This document shows, piece after piece, positions 3,503 to 10,412 of a stretch of 64,000 nucleotides of DNA. The notes beneath the pieces were generated by a model. That model saw nothing but the letters and a program-made list of their open reading frames with translations. It made no database searches and was not told the DNA's origin. Position 1 is the first letter of the stretch. The number at the start of each line of letters is the position of its first letter. The position numbers and the translations under genes were made by a program. The stretch comes from Phyllobacterium lublinensis (GTDB lineage: Bacteria; Pseudomonadota; Alphaproteobacteria; Rhizobiales; Rhizobiaceae). Where the stretch lies: assembly GCF_020164435.1 (NCBI RefSeq), contig NZ_JAIUDQ010000016.1, positions 1-64,000 of the forward strand. The letters are read 5' to 3'.

Positions 3503-3695
3503 GGTTCATTCCTTTCGGATATGCCGTCAAATTTGTGCTCGCTACAGTACTCCTGGCCGTAACGCCTTTCGAAGCCAAACGCTCCCCACGACTTGCAGTC
3601 CTCATGCATGCAGTAGTGTTCGAAAAGCCCGGTCGCGCCTTCTCCATATGCGCCGGATAGGGTTGTGGCGGCAGACTAATGGGTTCATCGCTCAT
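3499..3695 (-). pseudogene. Small cysteine/histidine zinc protein, frameshifted
   Basis: The start MSDEPISLPPQPYPAH (ATG 3695) is in one frame. From about 3630 the -1 frame carries a convincing zinc-site protein: GLFEHYCMHEDCKSWGAFGF followed by YCSEHKFDG. The HYCxHxxCxxWGxFGF...CxEH pattern is a small-protein type I recognise from rhizobial genomes. The frames meet near a CTTTTC run (3622-3630). The combined gene ends in a TGA that overlaps the next ATG, as expected for an intact operon member. Mutation, sequencing error and -1 frameshifting are all possible. Confidence 0.5.
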
Positions 3696-3876
3696 GTTTT
3701 TGGCGCTCCATGACTGATTCTATTTCGGCGACCCTATCTCTGATGGCTTTGAGGGCGTCTGGATAATCAATGGAGTTCTTGGCGAAGATTTCACTGCTTT
3801 CAATCACGGCGAGATCATCACGCAAATTCGACAGTTCTACCCGAAGCTCCTCCATTGTTGGCTCGTCTACGCCCAT
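3685..3876 (-). CDS. Small coiled-coil hypothetical protein
   Basis: 63 residues, strongly acidic/basic alternating helix (MEELRVELSNLRDDLAVIE; IRDRVAEIESVMERQKHER), likely coiled coil. It overlaps the start of the next gene by 11 bases, so it is the promoter-proximal gene of the 3876-3134 operon. Its start lies 114 bases from the divergent cassette start at 3991, so the LexA-like site could act on both directions. No family is recognised. Confidence 0.5.
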   Translation of the reverse strand: MGVDEPTMEELRVELSNLRDDLAVIESSEIFAKNSIDYPDALKAIRDRVAEIESVMERQKHER

Positions 3877-3955
3877 TTCCTCTCTCCCAACCTGAAGAAA
3901 TGCAACGTCTCATATTAGAAGCGGTTCCCCCGCTGCCAGTCGATCAGAGAGGACC

Positions 3956-3988
3956 TTGACTTGGTGGGAATATGTTCTCATTTTGTTC
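3956..3988 (+). promoter_or_regulatory. Sigma70-like promoter with embedded LexA-type box
   Basis: TTGACT (3956-3961), a 17-base spacer and CATTTT (3979-3984) form a -35/-10 pair. GTTC-TCATTTT-GTTC at 3974-3988 matches the GTTC-N7-GTTC operator of alphaproteobacterial LexA and covers the -10, as expected for a repressor site. The predicted transcript would start at or next to the ATG (3991), implying a leaderless message. The same arrangement is kept at 9828-9860. Regulation by LexA is inference. Confidence 0.65.
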
Positions 3989-3990
3989 TC

Positions 3991-4248
3991 ATGACAAGAA
4001 CGATGAGAACTTTGGGTGAGGCGGCTCGGCACAGCATGCTCGTGCGGGTAACTTGCCGCAAATGCAATAAGACCGGATTCTTCGTTGCAAGTGATCTGGC
4101 TACCGTCAATGGCCACGGTCGCACATTTAAAAGCCTGAAATTCCGCTGCCGGCAGTGCGATGTGGCTGACTGTGAAGTCGTACCATTCGAAGACGATCGT
4201 GACCGGGTTCACAAGAAGCGGACCGTGTGGCGTCCGGTACAGATGTAG
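3991..4248 (+). CDS. Cassette protein A (zinc ribbon), copy 1
   Basis: 85 residues from the ATG at 3991, chosen because the paralogue starts at the equivalent codon and because the promoter/LexA box lies immediately upstream. Cys22-x2-Cys25 (TCRKC) and Cys53-x2-Cys56 (FRCRQC) form a four-cysteine zinc ribbon around a DLATVNGHGRTFKSLKFRC core. A third cysteine pair member (Cys61) and a basic end (HKKRTVWRPVQM) follow. Similar small single-ribbon proteins occur in rhizobia without known function. It is followed after two bases by cassette protein B, so the pair is co-transcribed. DNA-damage induction is inferred from the promoter only. Confidence 0.75.
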   Translation: MTRTMRTLGEAARHSMLVRVTCRKCNKTGFFVASDLATVNGHGRTFKSLKFRCRQCDVADCEVVPFEDDRDRVHKKRTVWRPVQM

Positions 4249-4250
4249 CC

Positions 4251-4499
4251 ATGATGATGTCACTCGGAACCATTGGAGCATTGATCGACACCGATCATGT
4301 TCTTAGCGCCTGCTGCAACAACCCGACGTGTCGGCATTACGCGAGGCTCGATCTAGCGTTGTTGGCCAGCAAGATTGGTCGCAATCACAGCAGCATGCGT
4401 AAAGACTTAGTGCCGAAGCTAAAATGTTCGAAATGCAAGTCGAAAAACATCAGTCTGATCCTATCAGCGAAGAGCACGGAGGGGTTTGGTCATATGTAA
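4251..4499 (+). CDS. Cassette protein B (zinc ribbon), copy 1
   Basis: 82 residues. After MMMSLGTIGALIDTDH come Cys21/22-x4-Cys27 (CCNNPTCRHY) and Cys59-x2-Cys62 (LKCSKCKSK), a split zinc ribbon joined by a helix (LDLALLASKIGRNH). It ends in SLILSAKSTEGFGHM. Of three possible tandem ATGs the first (4251) keeps the same two-base gap as in the second copy. Function is unknown; the form suggests a small nucleic-acid- or protein-binding adaptor. A third, frameshifted relative lies at 8459-8702. Confidence 0.75.
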   Translation: MMMSLGTIGALIDTDHVLSACCNNPTCRHYARLDLALLASKIGRNHSSMRKDLVPKLKCSKCKSKNISLILSAKSTEGFGHM

Positions 4500-4587
4500 T
4501 CGGTGGCGAAGAATCGAGTTTCAACTTTTGGCAGTTGTGCCGCACGTTGATGCAACGGAAATTTTGAAACGTTTGTTGATTTAAAAG

Positions 4588-4619
4588 GGCAATCTATCGG
4601 CCTGTCACGCCGGAAGTTT
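4588..4619 (+). repeat. Conserved 32-base motif downstream of cassette copy 1
   Basis: GGCAATCTATCGGCCTGTCA followed by CGCCGGAAGTTT recurs at 10381-10412 with one mismatch. Here it is 88 bases after the cassette stop, in the second copy only 8 bases. It contains a short CGGC...GCCG palindrome but no T-run. It may mark the end of the duplicated unit or be an RNA processing/3' signal. Confidence 0.6.
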
Positions 4620-4645
4620 AGCCGCTCCTGGCCCTTGCGTAGGTT

Positions 4646-6052
4646 TTATTGCACCCGCCGGACATCGGGCAGGACCCAAGCTTTATCGAACAATGCTTTG
4701 GTCGGGGCGTAAAGTCGGAACATCAATTCGAAGTCTCGCTTAGGATCGGTGGGTATCCAGTTCGCGTCCTTGCCGTTCGGTGCTTGAGGTCCAAGAAAAA
4801 TGTCGATCGATCCATCCCCGTTTTTTTGGAGATCCGATATCTGCGAAGAGCGGCTCGCACGAGGCATGTTGCGGATCAGAGCATGGGTTTCCCGGTCATA
4901 TGCTGTCAGTGACCAATATTGCTCAACCGGAACGGCAGCGGGAACATTAAGGCGATATGTTTTAGCACCGTCAAAAGTCTCGCCATGCTCGTCCTTGATG
5001 GAAATCAGATAAAACTGTCCCGCACCCAGGCGCTTGATGCCGATATAGGCGTAGCTGTAAGTCAAACCTCGGATGTCGACCGGATAGGCGTCGGGTTCGT
5101 CAAACGAGGCCACTGCGGCCTTTACCAGGTCCGGATTTGCGGGAAAATTCCAATGTCCTTTTTCGTAAAAGGGTATCAGTTCTGTATCGTATTTTGCTTC
5201 GAGCCATTCGCGGGCTTCTTTGATGCCTCCCTCAAGCCGCTCGCGCGTCACCGCGTCCGGCTGGAATGGCTTGCCTTTCTCGATGCCCAACGATTTAAGC
5301 TGGTCGATCATGACCCGATCACGAGGCAGCCAGGGTTCACTCTGCACAATACGGTCGAGGGATTTGAAAAAGCTTGTGTCGTAGCGGATTGTCGAGTCGA
5401 ACAGAATGTCGCTGGCATCGGTGAAGACCGTCTCCGGGGGATTGGCGGCTTTGGAAAGCGGATAGACCTTCAGCCCCTTTGCGTAAGTGACTGCCTTCTC
5501 GATATCGTTATCGCTGTGACTGGCGAGGTTTGAGCGGAGAAGCGCGTATCCGCCATAGGTATTCGATACCAGGGGAATGTAGCCATCGGGAACCGGCTCT
5601 TTGTATCCAGGAGGCAGGATCAGGTATTTTCCTCCTTTACCCTGGTCGGCTCCTGACGGTCCGGCATCCTCTAGCGGCATTTGCCAGACGTCGACGATGT
5701 TGCCGTTGATCGAACCGCCCTCAGCAGCGGGCACCTCGATAACGACAGGTCCGATATCTCGCGTGTCAGTGAAAGTCATCAGATAGATCGCGTCTGGATT
5801 CGGTGTCAGGGTCTGATTGTGCCAGTCAAGCGGACGCGACCAATAGATGATCTCATTCACCTTGCCTTTGGTCTTTGTGAGCATCTCCTGCAGCATCAAG
5901 TCATAATTGACCGCCGGGATTCCCCAAATGACAGCTTCGACCGCGCGGCGCTCAACCGTCCGTTGTTTCAGTCCACTGGGGGATAAGGCATTGGCTACCG
6001 ATATCATCGCAACAAACGCCGATGCCGCCGCCACCAATTTAGCTCCTCTCAT
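4646..6052 (-). CDS. DUF1254/DUF1214 domain secreted protein
   Basis: 468 residues with a signal peptide (MRGAKLVAAASAFVAMISVANA). The N-terminal half carries the DUF1254 signature (AVEAVIWGIPAVNYDLMLQE; WHNQTLTPNPDAIYLMTF). The C-terminal half carries DUF1214 (YSYAYIGIKRLGAGQFYLIS; QYWSLTAYDRETHALI; GPQAPNGKDANWIPT). The full two-domain architecture is intact and the length is usual. The ATG at 6052 is preceded by AGGAGG. These periplasmic proteins are widespread in proteobacteria; their biochemical role is not established. No co-oriented neighbours suggest a pathway. Confidence 0.88.
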   Translation of the reverse strand: MRGAKLVAAASAFVAMISVANALSPSGLKQRTVERRAVEAVIWGIPAVNYDLMLQEMLTKTKGKVNEIIYWSRPLDWHNQTLTPNPDAIYLMTFTDTRDIGPVVIEVPAAEGGSINGNIVDVWQMPLEDAGPSGADQGKGGKYLILPPGYKEPVPDGYIPLVSNTYGGYALLRSNLASHSDNDIEKAVTYAKGLKVYPLSKAANPPETVFTDASDILFDSTIRYDTSFFKSLDRIVQSEPWLPRDRVMIDQLKSLGIEKGKPFQPDAVTRERLEGGIKEAREWLEAKYDTELIPFYEKGHWNFPANPDLVKAAVASFDEPDAYPVDIRGLTYSYAYIGIKRLGAGQFYLISIKDEHGETFDGAKTYRLNVPAAVPVEQYWSLTAYDRETHALIRNMPRASRSSQISDLQKNGDGSIDIFLGPQAPNGKDANWIPTDPKRDFELMFRLYAPTKALFDKAWVLPDVRRVQ

Positions 6053-6452
6053 GCCGCCGTCCTCCTGTTGTCGACCTGCAGACTTGTTTAATTCGTCGGT
6101 CAGGGAAAGTACGTAACCGTAAATGCGGTTTCGTTTTCCGATTAATTGTGCGGTATGGATGCAGAATTTTTAGCTCCAGAATTAGGATAGCTTTTTTCTG
6201 GGTGGCTGGCCCAATTGAGGGCGGGTACAACCGATGATCATATAGAAAGGGGCCCGCATTGGTGGCCTATCCCCGCAGCGTGAATTTCTCGGCTTAACTT
6301 GGTTCTGATTTAAGCGCACTTTAGGCCACATATTGCGCCACATAATGCGCCACAACTTTGGTGCGTTAATCAGAAACTCTGAATGTGATCAATAGTGCGC
6401 GCATTCTGGATTTGCGTCTCTACCGCATCGAACTTACCGTCTCCCATTGGAT
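6053..6452. other. Intergenic region upstream of the DUF1254 gene
   Basis: About 400 bases with no convincing ORF. It should hold the promoter of the minus-strand DUF1254 gene. The only visible structure is the 12-bp periodic motif at 6324-6356. Confidence 0.5.
6324..6356. repeat. Three iterons with 12-bp period
   Basis: Read on the minus strand: GTGGCGCATTAT, GTGGCGCAATAT, GTGGCC, three GTGG cores exactly 12 bases apart. The same architecture recurs at 10944-10978 (GTGGCGCGAAAT, GTGGAACGAAAT, GTGGCCC). One turn-plus periodicity suggests a protein-binding array; the function is unknown. Confidence 0.5.
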
Positions 6453-6581
6453 GCTGCGAAAAAGACCCGGTCCGCGTCGGACGGGCCAGGTCTCCTGAAC
6501 ATGGCTTAGCCGGGGTGACAGCCACGTTCGGCTGACAGGTAGCAGCCAATTTGCGAACGAGTGCCAGAAATTAAGGTTCCA
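6453..6581 (-). repeat. Copy 2 of the ~130-bp terminator repeat
   Basis: Paralogue of 2665-2797. On the minus strand it ends GACCTGG...GACGCGGACCGGGTC then TTTTTC, an intrinsic terminator; the second arm matches copy 1 exactly. It begins 11 bases after the stop of the 6593-6820 gene, so it forms that operon's 3' UTR. The internal conserved block (CTACCTGTCAGCCGAACGTG on the minus strand) is not needed for termination, which hints at an RNA role. Confidence 0.7.
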
Positions 6582-6592
6582 CGGTTTTGTCA

Positions 6593-6820
6593 TCATGCCC
6601 TGCGTATGATTTGGCCATCGTGCATTTCGAAAATTCCTGCGCACCCGCCTTGAGCAAAAAAATCCGCTTCAAGTTCGCGCCATGTGCCCAAATACGTAGC
6701 GCACGAACTGCAATGGATCGGGGTATAGCTGCTCACATTCTGCGTAAGGGCCAAATAGATCGTGTGGCAGCGGGGGCATTCCAATTTGTTATCAATTCGG
6801 TTCAGCTCAGTACTGGACAT
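6593..6820 (-). CDS. Small zinc-ribbon protein
   Basis: 75 residues with a strong ribosome site (GGAGGAGAGAGGAGC before the ATG at 6820). Cysteines ECPRCHTIY and IHCSSCATYLGTW make a four-cysteine ribbon. The C-terminus AGIFEMHDGQIIRRA is a pattern seen in rhizobial small zinc proteins of unknown function. It is the last gene of a minus-strand group from 7477, followed directly by terminator repeat copy 2. Confidence 0.65.
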   Translation of the reverse strand: MSSTELNRIDNKLECPRCHTIYLALTQNVSSYTPIHCSSCATYLGTWRELEADFFAQGGCAGIFEMHDGQIIRRA

Positions 6821-6873
6821 GCTCCTCTCTCCTCCAGCGGGACCCCTGTTGCGAAACTTGCGGGTAGACTGGG

Positions 6874-7128
6874 TTATGAGCCTTGCAAATTGGATCGCAG
6901 AGATAATGTTTCCGCAATGAAACGTTCCTGACGGACAGCGGCCGCCGCGATAACATTCTCATCGCGCAAACCACAGTCAAACAGCGTCATTACCCGTTTG
7001 GCCAGGCGGCGTTGCTTTTCCTCAGCGTTGGTAGACACCGAAAGTTCTCGGCAAGCACTGCGATGCGCTTGCTCCATCACATCCCAGTCTTCGTGAGAAT
7101 AGAATTTGAATGTCTTTAGATTTCCCAT
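6874..7128 (-). CDS. Small helical protein, intact member of a local paralogue pair
   Basis: 84 residues from the ATG at 7128, chosen for its GGAGG site; the open frame extends further upstream. It reads MGNLKTFKFYSHEDWDVMEQ, a helix with AKRVMTLFDCGLRDENVI, then a helical tail. The upstream neighbour (7116-7477) is a frameshifted paralogue sharing SxEDWxxMxxxH and LFxxGLRDExxIAxxAVxQE. I recognise the type as a common uncharacterised rhizobial small protein but know no function. Confidence 0.6.
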   Translation of the reverse strand: MGNLKTFKFYSHEDWDVMEQAHRSACRELSVSTNAEEKQRRLAKRVMTLFDCGLRDENVIAAAAVRQERFIAETLSLRSNLQGS

Positions 7129-7477
7129 GTTATTAACCTCCAGGGGCGGTGACGTGGGGGAACGACCGTCGTCTGCCACACCCGATTGTCATTCGAAGCC
7201 TTGACCCACGTTTCGGTCACTGTGGCTTTCAGGACCGCGCTGTCTCGCTGGCTCCAGATATTGGTCACGGTAACTTCCTGCTCCACGGCCCGCGTGGCAA
7301 TCAGCAACTCATCGCGCAAGCCTTGGCCGAAAAGATTCATTAAGTCCGAGCAAGTCGGTTAGCGTTCTTGTGCGTCTTGGGACAGCGATGCAGGATCGCA
7401 GATGCTTTGGCATGGCAGCGCTGCATCAGAGCCCAATCTTCGGAAGAATAATTATACTGAATGAGAAGGTGAAGCAT
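7116..7477 (-). pseudogene. Frameshifted paralogue of the 6874-7128 gene
   Basis: ATG at 7477 with GGGAGA site; reads YNYSSEDWALMQRCHAKASA to RLART then TAA near 7343. One frame over, LMNLFGQGLRDELLIATRAV continues exactly where the intact paralogue has VMTLFDCGLRDENVIAAAAV. The second part runs to 7116 with a longer, different C-terminus that overlaps the next gene. A single indel at the TTAATG overlap explains it. Two coupled ORFs or programmed shifting are less likely but not excluded. Confidence 0.6.
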
Positions 7478-7686
7478 GGAGTTCTCCCCATGGGTGTAAG
7501 GCGGGAGCACGTTCCATCTCTCTAGCACCAGTGGCCACAAATGCCTGGCGACTTTGGAATTGTCCTCCAGTGGACGCTTGGAGTCAATTTAATCGAATTA
7601 ATCGAACAAATTCGGACGCTTGTATCGGCCAGTTGGAACCATGCCTTGGCGTTTATCGTTTTTCCCCTCCGGAAAGGTCATGTGTG

Positions 7687-7863
7687 GTGAACGAAAAAGA
7701 GGTAAAGCCGGACATCGCAAAAGTGGTCAGAGAACAACTGAACCGCAGCGCCTATAAGCATGCGCTGCGCAGTCGCTACAAGCCGATCTCCGACGAGCCG
7801 ATGAGTGATGAGCTGCTAAAGCGGCTGGCAGAGCAAGAGGCCAAGAAGGACTCCGAAAAGTAA
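7687..7863 (+). CDS. NepR-like small protein (putative anti-sigma factor domain)
   Basis: 58 residues from a GTG at 7687 preceded by GGAAAGG (7672-7678); an adjacent GTG at 7684 is an alternative. The C-terminal half, LRSRYKPISDEPMSDELLKR, follows the pattern of NepR anti-sigma factors (LR-x-LY...EP-x-PD-x-x-x-x-LL). A helical N-terminus (IAKVVREQLNRSAYKHA) precedes it. NepR proteins bind the general-stress sigma factor EcfG and are released by PhyR. No phyR or ecfG is near, so this would be a stray paralogue. The assignment rests on a short pattern. Confidence 0.45.
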   Translation: MNEKEVKPDIAKVVREQLNRSAYKHALRSRYKPISDEPMSDELLKRLAEQEAKKDSEK

Positions 7864-7999
7864 ACTGTTAGACTTCGACGTCGGCATGTGTTCGCTGCAG
7901 TAGGGCCCGCATGCCCTGCTAGTGTAACCGGGAATTTATTTGATTGGGCGGAAACGTCGCTGTAGATCAAGCAGCCAGTCAAGATCACGGTGGGAGGCA

Positions 8000-8233
8000 A
8001 TGGTGACCAGCCTAGTCGACAAGGTGGCGATAGCCATGATCGCGGCAATGGACAGGAAACAAGCTTTTATACAGCATACGTCGAACCTCAAATCCGTCAG
8101 CATTGACGGACATGTGGACATGAAAGCGCTAGCGCGTGCTGCGATCCTTGCAGTACGCAGCGACCTTGACGCCGGGACGATGCGTGATGGCGATATCATT
8201 CCCTACCTGGACAGGTGGTTAGACGGAGCATGA
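8000..8233 (+). CDS. Small hypothetical protein
   Basis: 77 residues from the ATG at 8000 (GGGAGG just upstream; a GTG three bases on fits the spacing better). Two helices (LVDKVAIAMIAAMDRKQ; MKALARAAILAVRSDLDAG) and an acidic end (YLDRWLDGA). It has the look of short accessory proteins in rhizobial phages and plasmids, with no known role. It is followed after four bases by the next gene. Confidence 0.5.
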   Translation: MVTSLVDKVAIAMIAAMDRKQAFIQHTSNLKSVSIDGHVDMKALARAAILAVRSDLDAGTMRDGDIIPYLDRWLDGA

Positions 8234-8237
8234 AGAA

Positions 8238-8462
8238 ATGAGCAGTTTACGTGTGATCGATATGACGCTGGATCAGGCCTTGCAGATCCTTGCACGAGTG
8301 CATTTGCGCGAAGACAGCGAAGTGGGCTTCGTCATCGAGATAGGTGCAACCCCCAGCTTCGGCTCAATGGTGAGTGAGGGTGAATACGTCGACGCTTGGG
8401 CAGTTGTGTGGCAGTACACCCAAGGCGACAAGCCGACGCACAAGCCTGACAGCATAAATTGA
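8238..8462 (+). CDS. Small hypothetical protein
   Basis: 74 residues, compact and mixed alpha/beta in appearance (MTLDQALQILARVHLRED; GFVIEIGATPSFGSMV; AWAVVWQYTQGD). Downstream of the 8000-8233 gene by four bases; its TGA overlaps the TTG that could start the broken 8459-8702 gene. Unrecognised family. Confidence 0.5.
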   Translation: MSSLRVIDMTLDQALQILARVHLREDSEVGFVIEIGATPSFGSMVSEGEYVDAWAVVWQYTQGDKPTHKPDSIN

Positions 8463-8702
8463 CCGATCAATCCGACAACGGCATGTTCGGTGGGCTGATC
8501 GATCATCATGCAGATCTGGATATCGATGCCCTTGCGTTGAAGTTTGGCCGCAATCACGTCGATCACAGTTGATCTGTTGCGATTTTTAAAGTGCTCTAAA
8601 TGCGGTTCTAAGAGGTTGACGTTAATATACTCTCCGAAAGAACGATCGGCTAACATAGGCAGAGCGCACGAGAGTCCCAAACTAAGAAAAACCGACCGCT
8701 GA
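8459..8702 (+). pseudogene. Broken third copy of cassette protein B
   Basis: From TTG 8459 (or ATG 8483) one frame reads FGGLIDHHADLDIDALALKF and GRNHVDHS, then TGA at 8570-8572. The frame beginning GAT at 8571 continues VDLLRFLKCSKCGSKRLTLI up to TGA 8700-8702. Together they reproduce the cassette B order: GALID, the LDL...GRNH helix, DLVPKLKCSKC and SLILS. The first cysteine knuckle (CCNNPTC in the intact copies) is missing. A frameshift plus deletion best explains it. Confidence 0.55.
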
Positions 8703-9032
8703 TGGGGAGCAGCGGCCGGGTGCACTGACCAGTATCAGGGACTTGGGTGGGGTCAGCCACTCAAGGCTGCTCCTGCATGGTTAATAAATGATTAAGGTCG
8801 CGGGGATGGGTGAGGCCTGATGCGTTGAACGGGGTGACTCTTCATCAGGCCTCTGTCGGGGACGGGCCTCCAACGCGCTATAAACTTGCGAATGTGACAA
8901 ACGTTCCGTTTGCCGACCTGTGATGAGTACAACCCCTTGCGATATTCAGGGAAACCCCGATTGTCCCTCGCAACAATTGGGATAAACTTGATGGTAGGCT
9001 TTGGTCCCCCCTAACCAGCCTAACCTCTCACA
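8703..9032. other. Non-coding stretch with hairpins, possible small RNA
   Basis: No credible ORF. CCGCTG...CAGCGG (about 8696-8715) and the 11-bp inverted repeat at 8812-8853 are present, and the stretch ends in the terminator at 9033-9061. The terminator lies 330 bases beyond the last coding remnant, so an independent transcript is plausible. Confidence 0.35.
8812..8853. repeat. Perfect 11-bp inverted repeat, 20-base loop
   Basis: GAGGCCTGATG (8812-8822) and CATCAGGCCTC (8843-8853). No T-run follows on either strand, so it is not a standard terminator. It could be an RNA stem or an operator-like site. Confidence 0.6.
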
Positions 9033-9061
9033 CCGCCGCTGCCTCCCAGCGGCGGTTTTTT
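9033..9061 (+). terminator. Strong intrinsic terminator
   Basis: CCGCCGCTG, short loop, CAGCGGCGG (arms 9033-9041 and 9047-9055) followed directly by TTTTTT on the plus strand. Confidence 0.85.
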
Positions 9062-9270
9062 GATTCAACGCGGCCCAACATGGAGCGACAGCATCGGTCG
9101 GACGGGATATGCGCTCGCCTGCCATTTCGTTGGCCAAGACCGGAAACCAGAAAAACTGTCCTGTCCGCCCTGCCGTCACGTCTGGTTAACACAACCGACG
9201 CTGTCGCAGCATAAACGGGGTTTCACCGGAACTGTTCCGTCGGCTGAGCGGCCTTGCCTGTCTGGAGCAT

Positions 9271-9468
9271 TCATTTGAGAGATGCGTCGGAGACAAGCAT
9301 CGTGGTCTCGCCGACCTCGTTAATACTCGCCCTGATCTGTCTAGCCTCTTCAAACGCTTCGTTGATGAGATGTTGCAGGAGCCCGTATCCTTCATGATGG
9401 GCTCTATCCCGAACTTCGACCAGGATATCGCAAATGTCGTCAATGGCGAGGCGATTGGGTCTATCCAT
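9271..9468 (-). CDS. Small helical hypothetical protein
   Basis: 65 residues, MDRPNRLAIDDICDILVEVR then EGYGLLQHLINEAFEEARQI, a helical acidic small protein of unknown family. It sits 38 bases downstream of the 9507-9719 gene in the same direction and probably forms an operon with it, divergent from cassette copy 2. Confidence 0.5.
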   Translation of the reverse strand: MDRPNRLAIDDICDILVEVRDRAHHEGYGLLQHLINEAFEEARQIRASINEVGETTMLVSDASLK

Positions 9469-9506
9469 TTCAAACTCCCAGCGTGCTTTAAGCGTTCAGG
9501 GCACGG

Positions 9507-9719
9507 TCATTTCTTTCTCTTCGACTTTGTGGGTGACGCATCGTTGCGCGCCACGATTTCCGCGTAGTGGGAAAGCAGCCGCCTATAATGGTCAGCAGTC
9601 TGGAGAGAAATATCTTCCTTCTCGCCAGATCGGCTCGTTCGATAAACTTTTTCCTGCCCGGTTTCCAGCCGATCGATCGTCACCTGATACTCGCTGATGA
9701 CTCTCTTCAGGCGCTCCAT
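9507..9719 (-). CDS. Small coiled-coil protein with lysine-rich tail
   Basis: 70 residues: MERLKRVISEYQVTIDRLET, then a second helix LQTADHYRRLLSHYAEIVAR, then a basic tail ending KSKRKK. Divergent from cassette copy 2 and separated from its start by 144 bases, paralleling the coiled-coil gene that is divergent from copy 1. The two coiled-coil proteins are not obviously homologous. Confidence 0.5.
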   Translation of the reverse strand: MERLKRVISEYQVTIDRLETGQEKVYRTSRSGEKEDISLQTADHYRRLLSHYAEIVARNDASPTKSKRKK

Positions 9720-9827
9720 AAAGGCATTACGAGTACTATTGATGGTTTCACTCCACGCCCCGTTGCATCGAGAGTGTTAAACAATCTTCGGTTGTGTGCA
9801 AGAGAGAGCCGGGCACCATCGTCGACC

Positions 9828-9860
9828 TTGACTTGGTGGGAATACGTTCTCATTTTGTTC
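9828..9860 (+). promoter_or_regulatory. Sigma70-like promoter with embedded LexA-type box, copy 2
   Basis: TTGACT (9828-9833), 17-base spacer, CATTTT (9851-9856). GTTC-TCATTTT-GTTC at 9846-9860 again overlaps the -10. Sequence around the box differs from copy 1 (TACGTTCT versus TATGTTCT; TCTATGACTC versus TCATGACAAG) while both GTTC half-sites and the spacer are unchanged, suggesting selection on the box. Confidence 0.65.
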
Positions 9861-9863
9861 TCT

Positions 9864-10121
9864 ATGACTCGAACCCTCAAAACTCTAGGGCAGGCCGCTC
9901 GGCATGGCATGCTGGTGCGGGTGACTTGCCGGAAATGCGAGAAGACGGGATTTTTCGTTGCGAGTGATCTCGCCACCGTCAACGGCCACGGTCGTACGTT
10001 CAGGAGCCTGAAATTCCGCTGCCGGGAGTGCGATGTAGTCGACTGTGAAGTAGTGCCATTCGAAGACGATCGGGACGGGGTTCATAAAAAGCGGACCGTC
10101 TGGCGGCCGGTGCAGATGTAG
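9864..10121 (+). CDS. Cassette protein A (zinc ribbon), copy 2
   Basis: 85 residues from the ATG at 9864, aligned without gaps to the 3991-4248 product with nine substitutions by hand count. All four ribbon cysteines (TCRKC, FRCREC) are kept, as are Cys61 and the basic end. The frame is open far upstream, but the sequence before 9864 is promoter and shares no protein similarity. The start codon lies directly after the LexA-type box, so a leaderless message is predicted. Function is unknown. Confidence 0.75.
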   Translation: MTRTLKTLGQAARHGMLVRVTCRKCEKTGFFVASDLATVNGHGRTFRSLKFRCRECDVVDCEVVPFEDDRDGVHKKRTVWRPVQM

Positions 10122-10123
10122 CC

Positions 10124-10372
10124 ATGGTAATGACACTCGGCACCATTGGAGCATTGATCGATACTGATCATATGCTGCGCGCCTGCTGCAACAATCCAAA
10201 GTGCCGCCACTACGCCAAGCTTGACCTGGTGCTGCTGGCTGCAAAGCTTGGGCGAGATCACAGCACCATGCGGAATGATTTGGTACCCGAACTGAAATGT
10301 TCGAAATGCAAGTCGAAGAACATCAGTCTGATTCTCTCGGCGAAGAGCACTGAGGGGTTTGGACATGCGTGA
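10124..10372 (+). CDS. Cassette protein B (zinc ribbon), copy 2
   Basis: 82 residues, ungapped paralogue of 4251-4499 with 14 substitutions by hand count. The cysteine sites CCNNPKCRHY and LKCSKCKSK and the whole stretch KNISLILSAKSTEGFGH are unchanged. Most substitutions are conservative (R/K, S/T, I/L, N/D). Coupled to protein A by a two-base gap. The conserved 32-base motif follows at 10381. Confidence 0.75.
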   Translation: MVMTLGTIGALIDTDHMLRACCNNPKCRHYAKLDLVLLAAKLGRDHSTMRNDLVPELKCSKCKSKNISLILSAKSTEGFGHA

Positions 10373-10380
10373 TCAGGAAC

Positions 10381-10412
10381 GGCAATCTATCGGCCTGTCA
10401 CACCGGAAGTTT
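10381..10412 (+). repeat. Conserved 32-base motif downstream of cassette copy 2
   Basis: Partner of 4588-4619; differs at one base, which breaks one pair of its small palindrome. Located 8 bases after the cassette stop. Confidence 0.6.

Follow-up and report, generated by a model that had tools for sequence, protein, structure and literature searches.

A duplicated zinc-ribbon-like gene cassette with a putative LexA operator in Phyllobacterium lublinensis, and its possible link to SRAP proteins

The best described relatives of the locus reported here are the alphaproteobacterial LexA regulon and the genomic neighbourhoods of SRAP proteins. The LexA site of Alphaproteobacteria is GTTC-N7-GTTC, according to the available portions of PMC8565304 and PMC3323433; SRAP/HMCES proteins crosslink to abasic sites in single-stranded DNA, as set out in the accessible parts of PMC9436759 and PMC10250235; and the available text of PMC3765255 reports two uncharacterised Zn-ribbon-like domains in neighbourhoods of SRAP and Ku. 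We analyzed a stretch of 64,000 nt from Phyllobacterium lublinensis (assembly GCF_020164435.1, contig NZ_JAIUDQ010000016.1, positions 1–64,000 of the forward strand; hereafter the window), which carries two copies of a cassette of two small genes, A and B, behind a promoter containing a GTTC-N7-GTTC box. We consider that the likeliest role of these cassettes, at a probability of roughly 0.6, is to supply zinc ribbons that are induced in the SOS response and assist SRAP where single-stranded DNA is damaged.

The two cassettes lie 5.9 kb apart on the forward strand and share one layout. In cassette 1, a predicted −35 element (TTGACT, 3956–3961), at the TTGAC position seen in most A-family rows, precedes a putative LexA box, GTTCTCATTTTGTTC (3974–3988), and a predicted −10 element identified by eye (CATTTT, 3979–3984), which stands at a 17-base spacer from the −35 and would put the start point at or adjoining 3991. 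Gene A1 (3991–4248), predicted to be leaderless, encodes an 85-aa C4 zinc-ribbon-like protein, and gene B1 (4251–4499) encodes one of 82 aa. Cassette 2 repeats this arrangement, with a predicted −35 at 9828–9833, the putative LexA box GTTCTCATTTTGTTC at 9846–9860, a predicted −10 (CATTTT, again by eye) at 9851–9856, A2 at 9864–10121 and B2 at 10124–10372. The gap from A to B is two bases in both cassettes, and the recurring two-gene layout that the first-pass annotation had described at 3952–4499 and 9824–10372 was confirmed in its coordinates and its gap. The same annotation had held that both GTTC half-sites and their spacer were unchanged, that the proteins were about 89% and 83% identical and that silent positions had diverged, and each of these statements held: a whole 35-bp promoter block, TTGACTTGGTGGGAATAYGTTCTCATTTTGTTCTC, is present at 3956–3990 and 9828–9862 (mean in 100 shuffles, 0.00), A1 and A2 are identical at 76/85 aa (89.4%) and B1 and B2 at 68/82 aa (82.9%). 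Base differences at codon positions 1, 2 and 3 numbered 8, 3 and 31 for A (31 of 42 in third position) and 11, 7 and 33 for B (33 of 51), and the differing codons were synonymous rather than not in ratios of 28 to 9 and 31 to 14, respectively. Given this excess of third-position and synonymous change, the sense frames of A and B look to be under coding selection.

The bare motif occurs at chance density, both in the window (2 observed, 2.23 expected) and in the genome (175 occurrences, versus 169 for a reversed-pattern control), and its frequency alone thus lends no support to LexA. What argues for LexA is the retention of the box across the A family. From 103 profile matches we kept 87 rows, one of which (L054) matched B only, leaving 86 A genes, which represent 72 genomes and 34 genera (genera entered by hand); some counts are still given over the 87 rows. 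The 16 rows dropped were second-domain matches, copies without their N-terminus (e.g., C1:504769 in L093, L163:5762 and L169:5947, for which no box was listed) and matches weaker than 1e-8; of the original search matches, those weaker than about 1e-8 stand outside the counts, as do a number of other Phyllobacterium places (e.g., G007:C2:132410, G002:C2:451974 and G008:C41:2898). The first-pass annotation had asked whether A homologues in other genomes would lack the box, and we found that 69 of the 86 genes, in 59 of the 72 genomes and 30 of the 34 genera, carry an exact GTTC-N7-GTTC on either strand no more than 120 bp from the start. GTTC pairs with another spacing, and seven further four-letter words tried at ten spacings, reached at most 4 of 87 rows. 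Within 60 bp upstream, the exact box was present in 64 of 87 rows, a spacer of 2 in two rows, and spacers of 3–6 and 8–12 in none; in bins running from the closest to the most distant rows, it was found in 12/12, 19/21, 23/27 and 10/27. Five of the 18 rows without an exact box were off by a single base. Because the box is kept across the family while other spacings and words are so rare, LexA control of the cassettes appears very probable. Upstream of a B-like gene at L206, GATCCTATTTGATC follows TTGAC in place of the GTTC box, and looks like an altered form of the same operator.

The promoter around the box has a fixed geometry. TTGAC begins 34–38 bases before the ATG in 58 of 87 A rows, compared with 143 of the 28,346 ATGs (0.5%) of the same loci, and only 4 of 87 A rows have a Shine-Dalgarno-like word among the 20 bases before the ATG, compared with 16% of those ATGs. 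Since a 17-base spacer puts the start point on or adjoining the ATG, the A mRNA is predicted to be leaderless. The box itself occupies two positions, −16 to −20 in 35 of the 86 A genes and −26 to −30 in 27, which differ by about one helical turn while the TTGAC-to-ATG spacing remains constant, pointing to an operator rather than an inherited flank. At least three switches between these positions are needed on the tree, which is poorly resolved (89 columns, with 34 of 82 inner branches open). Two operator positions on one fixed, predicted leaderless promoter would offer a natural comparison of repressor placement in the absence of an mRNA leader.

For a genome-wide scan we used a stricter box, GTTCNNNWTDYGTTC, with the reversed pattern as control, and obtained 18 occurrences versus 2. 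A cassettes account for five of these 18 sites. One further site lies 55 bp upstream of lexA (a full-length open reading frame (ORF) matching PF01726 over its cut-off), and others precede imuA (named by eye; an IMS-domain gene lies downstream of it) and another two IMS-domain genes, of the dinB type, one of which carries ATATGTTCTAGTTTTGTTCTC, close to the sequence of the cassette itself. Two more, assigned by eye, lie at uvrA/ssb and some 310 bp before a dnaE-like gene. At C1:401033, the strict site falls on an AGGAG stretch before an 81-aa CxxC ORF and may be a ribosome site. The first-pass annotation's reading of GTTC-N7-GTTC as a LexA box is supported both by conservation in the A family and by strict boxes at lexA, imuA, dinB and uvrA/ssb. 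The genome also encodes a second, short protein with a LexA DNA-binding domain (L037, G000:C1:407557; PF01726, 40.9 bits), located among genes that look prophage-like by eye and 37 kb from an A-B copy at C1:444838.

The earlier description of A and B as tiny, presumably zinc-binding ribbon proteins is compatible with their conserved cysteines and predicted models. In a 19-row alignment of A, with identity down to 33%, four Cys are invariant; B has four conserved Cys of its own, and the Cys pairs of both proteins lie about 30 residues apart. The predicted models, whose mean pLDDT values of 76 and 78 indicate medium confidence, contain strand pairs and arrange their elements in a similar order; B has one extra helix, and the C-terminal helix of A is modelled at low confidence. 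Neither protein exceeded a curated cut-off in Pfam or NCBIfam, and PHROGs, which has no cut-offs, returned nothing clearly significant (best E-values 0.0043 in NCBIfam and 0.011 in Pfam and PHROGs); a sequence search of the PDB with the A profile gave a best E of 0.057. Comparison of the A and B profiles yielded a probability of 47 and an E of 2e-4, and three genomic places were matched by both profiles. At a threshold of E ≤ 10, the B profile recovered 82 of the 86 A proteins, but it also hit reversed sequences (38 of 86) and shuffled ones (13 of 86). A and B are fused as one ORF in L013, L014, L015 and L168. That the two are probably paralogues is moderately supported.

The connection to SRAP comes from the neighbourhoods of A. 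A gene for SRAP (HMCES/YedK, PF02586) lies within 1.7 kb of A in at least 18 of 86 loci, in 7 of 34 genera; this is a lower bound, as neighbours were sought with one MCNLYN-type query plus L144 by eye in flanks of up to 6 kb, some of them shorter, and the count excludes the SRAP genes at L163 (2.3 kb away), L146 and L167 (both more than 5 kb away). In five loci (L094, L164, L106, L015 and L014), SRAP is divergent from A, its match beginning 87–98 bp from the A ATG, and in all five the box lies between the two genes, with two boxes in L015. In L145 and L160, SRAP directly follows A on the same strand. Pfam confirmed seven of the SRAP neighbours and likewise, close to A, ATP-dependent ligase domains (L143 and L144) and a photolyase (L112). 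SRAP is present in 92 of 99 relatives with one to eight matches each, at which density we estimate that fewer than one chance neighbour of A would be expected. The linkage requires at least 12 changes on the tree, and is thus labile or repeatedly gained.

From these observations we propose that LexA bound to GTTC-N7-GTTC would cover the −10 element and the start point, keeping the two-gene operon silent until DNA damage brings about RecA-dependent self-cleavage of LexA and lifts repression. RNA polymerase would then make an mRNA starting at or adjoining the A ATG, from which A and then B would be translated. The two proteins could bind single-stranded or lesion-bearing DNA as a pair (or, where they are fused, as a single chain) and act together with SRAP by loading it, shielding the stretch or passing the lesion on. 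Judged from sequence, a role of A and B in the DNA-damage response seems probable, if less so than their control by LexA, and for a partnership with SRAP in particular we see the odds as even.

A number of results weigh against this proposal. The exact box is missing from 17 of 86 A genes, is retained within 60 bp by just 10 of the 27 rows in the most distant bin, and lies within 150 bp of only 3 of 19 lone B-like genes, whose starts were guessed. Seven of the 18 strict sites in the host genome were assigned to no gene, and an exact box looked for at the host recA was not found. No SRAP gene was seen within 1.7 kb at 68 of 86 A loci, including both cassettes in the window, and the only SRAP match in the genome of the window is on another contig. 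Fold searches against the PDB and viral structures gave nothing at E ≤ 1e-3 (best PDB matches, E 0.24 for A and 0.053 for B; best viral match, 1.8e-3), and a structure-based family assignment was accordingly dropped.

The absence of an adjoining SRAP from most A loci would suit an explanation in which the cassettes are LexA-controlled and A and B act on transcription or cell division, docking during the SOS response on the RNA polymerase, on some other regulator or on a protein of the division machinery. Such a role is equally compatible with proteins that are small and zinc-ribbon-like in pattern, and with genes that carry an SOS box and are present in many copies in Phyllobacterium. We nevertheless judge it unlikely, since SRAP linkage in seven genera and in several orientations, together with the ligase and the photolyase, is easier to understand as DNA repair than as regulation.

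A second alternative is that the cassette is mainly a passenger of mobile elements or accessory islands equipped with an SOS promoter, for instance in phage or plasmid conflict or in transfer. As to distribution, the search with protein A gave matches in 24 of 99 relatives; within the same family, its profile hit 82 of 394 genomes, in 44 of 109 genera, with at most 13 candidates scored per genome (18 for B). At class level it matched 3 of 385 genomes, a figure that rests on shallow scoring (at most 14 candidates per genome) and is no proof of rarity outside the family. The B profile matched 64 of 297 family genomes, where B-like proteins without a nearby A were common and matches with E < 1e-30 came, in that sample, from two genomes only, that of the window and that of another Phyllobacterium. 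Most A genes fetched from outside Phyllobacterium had no adjoining B match, so strict A-B pairing is mainly a feature of this genus. In L194 and L207, which belong to other genera, a B-like gene directly follows what appears by eye to be the C-terminus of a distant A protein, and the A-B order may be older than Phyllobacterium. The nearest named relatives were Phyllobacterium, to which 10 of 11 loci belonged, the eleventh being from a Rhizobiales isolate. The P. lublinensis genome holds six A-like places, five with the box and a sixth without its N-terminal part; the two copies in one island described earlier belong to a set spread over the genome.

Dispersal of these six copies, plasmid copies of A in nine records and, between the cassettes, a stretch where a B-like sequence has decayed into two frames (8480–8645, +) agree with the passenger explanation, as does an accessory setting with many small ORFs, where GC content is 0.50–0.58 (1–15 kb) compared with 0.57–0.61 further along (15–20 kb). 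On the other hand, A had no match among 50,697 phage records, which led us to set aside a phage origin as unsupported, and the single viral contig with A shares its upstream sequence with a Phyllobacterium genome locus. In several genera, moreover, the chromosomal surroundings of A recur: it lies, for instance, next to lon and an HU-like gene (identified by eye) or close to a photolyase. We regard mere passage on mobile elements as rather less likely than a regulatory role.

Much less probable than either is that the direct repeat belongs to another regulator, or is inherited promoter sequence, with no relation to LexA. The chance-level density of the bare motif in window and genome and the conservation of the whole 35-bp block in Phyllobacterium would be compatible with this, but the half-sites and their spacing are kept while box position and flanks vary, and the same box occurs at lexA, imuA and dinB. 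Finally, an opposite-strand hypothetical protein is annotated over A in P. zundukense and Phyllobacterium sp. T1018 records, and the idea that this ORF is the real gene and A none can be practically dismissed in light of the invariant cysteines of A, the third-position bias in its sense frame and the interruption of the antisense frame in A2. At the place of A, five Phyllobacterium plasmid records had no feature (three) or an antisense hypothetical protein (two), and the one Mesorhizobium record inspected had an annotated sense-strand gene, in a comparison based on a plasmid gene table known to be incomplete.

Several other features accompany the cassettes. A 32-bp element common to both lies 3′ of each (4588–4619 and 10381–10412, both +); by eye it looks like the anticodon arm of tRNA-Asp, ARAGORN called no tRNA at either copy, and its core 15-mer is also found 3′ of an A-B pair in P. 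zundukense (L161:13016–13030). Between the cassettes, Rfam matched the Rhizobiales sRNA Atu_At1 at 9095–9201 (−), with 82.8 bits (gathering score, 60) and an E of 4.8e-13. Three small genes of the window recur near A in other Phyllobacterium loci: one zinc-ribbon-like (6593–6820, −), one coiled-coil-like (3685–3876, −) and one encoding DUF982 (2275–2715, −).

Apparently induced by DNA damage and often located beside SRAP, A and B probably belong to the bacterial response to such damage, in which they have been overlooked. If so, the SOS response would gain, in a large group of bacteria, a conserved and poorly annotated gene family, and SRAP/HMCES proteins would gain a concrete candidate partner, open to pull-down and genetics. 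A bolder form of the proposal, which we offer tentatively and think somewhat doubtful, is that Rhizobiaceae-type bacteria share a widespread leaderless SOS family of zinc ribbons dedicated to SRAP, above all to its divergent MCNLYN-type subfamily, forming an abasic-site or crosslink module under one LexA operator that may take either of two positions, a helical turn from each other, on a promoter whose geometry is fixed. The first-pass annotation had known of no described system of this composition. We likewise recognised no description of LexA-controlled zinc ribbons like A and B in a literature search that left subscription journals mostly outside its scope; that statement has to be qualified by the Zn-ribbon-like domains near SRAP and Ku reported in the available text of PMC3765255.

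Our loci resemble those neighbourhoods: small proteins of Zn-ribbon-like type are encoded next to SRAP, and a few loci also have an ATP-dependent ligase. As far as the available text goes, they differ in that the Zn domains of that paper are tied to SRAP plus Ku, whereas the linkage of A was read for SRAP alone; its main text, in the portion available, names no LexA box or leaderless promoter for these domains, which are likened to A and B by description only. With C4 zinc-ribbon domains such as the MCM N-terminal, HypA and SIRT2 zinc modules, A and B share two Cys pairs about 30 residues apart and modelled strand pairs, but their sequence matches fall under curated cut-offs and their fold matches are weak. 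With the alphaproteobacterial LexA regulon, finally, the cassettes share a box of the same form lying over the promoter, the same box that stands at lexA, imuA and dinB, and they differ from it in their targets, which are uncharacterised, predicted leaderless zinc-ribbon genes.

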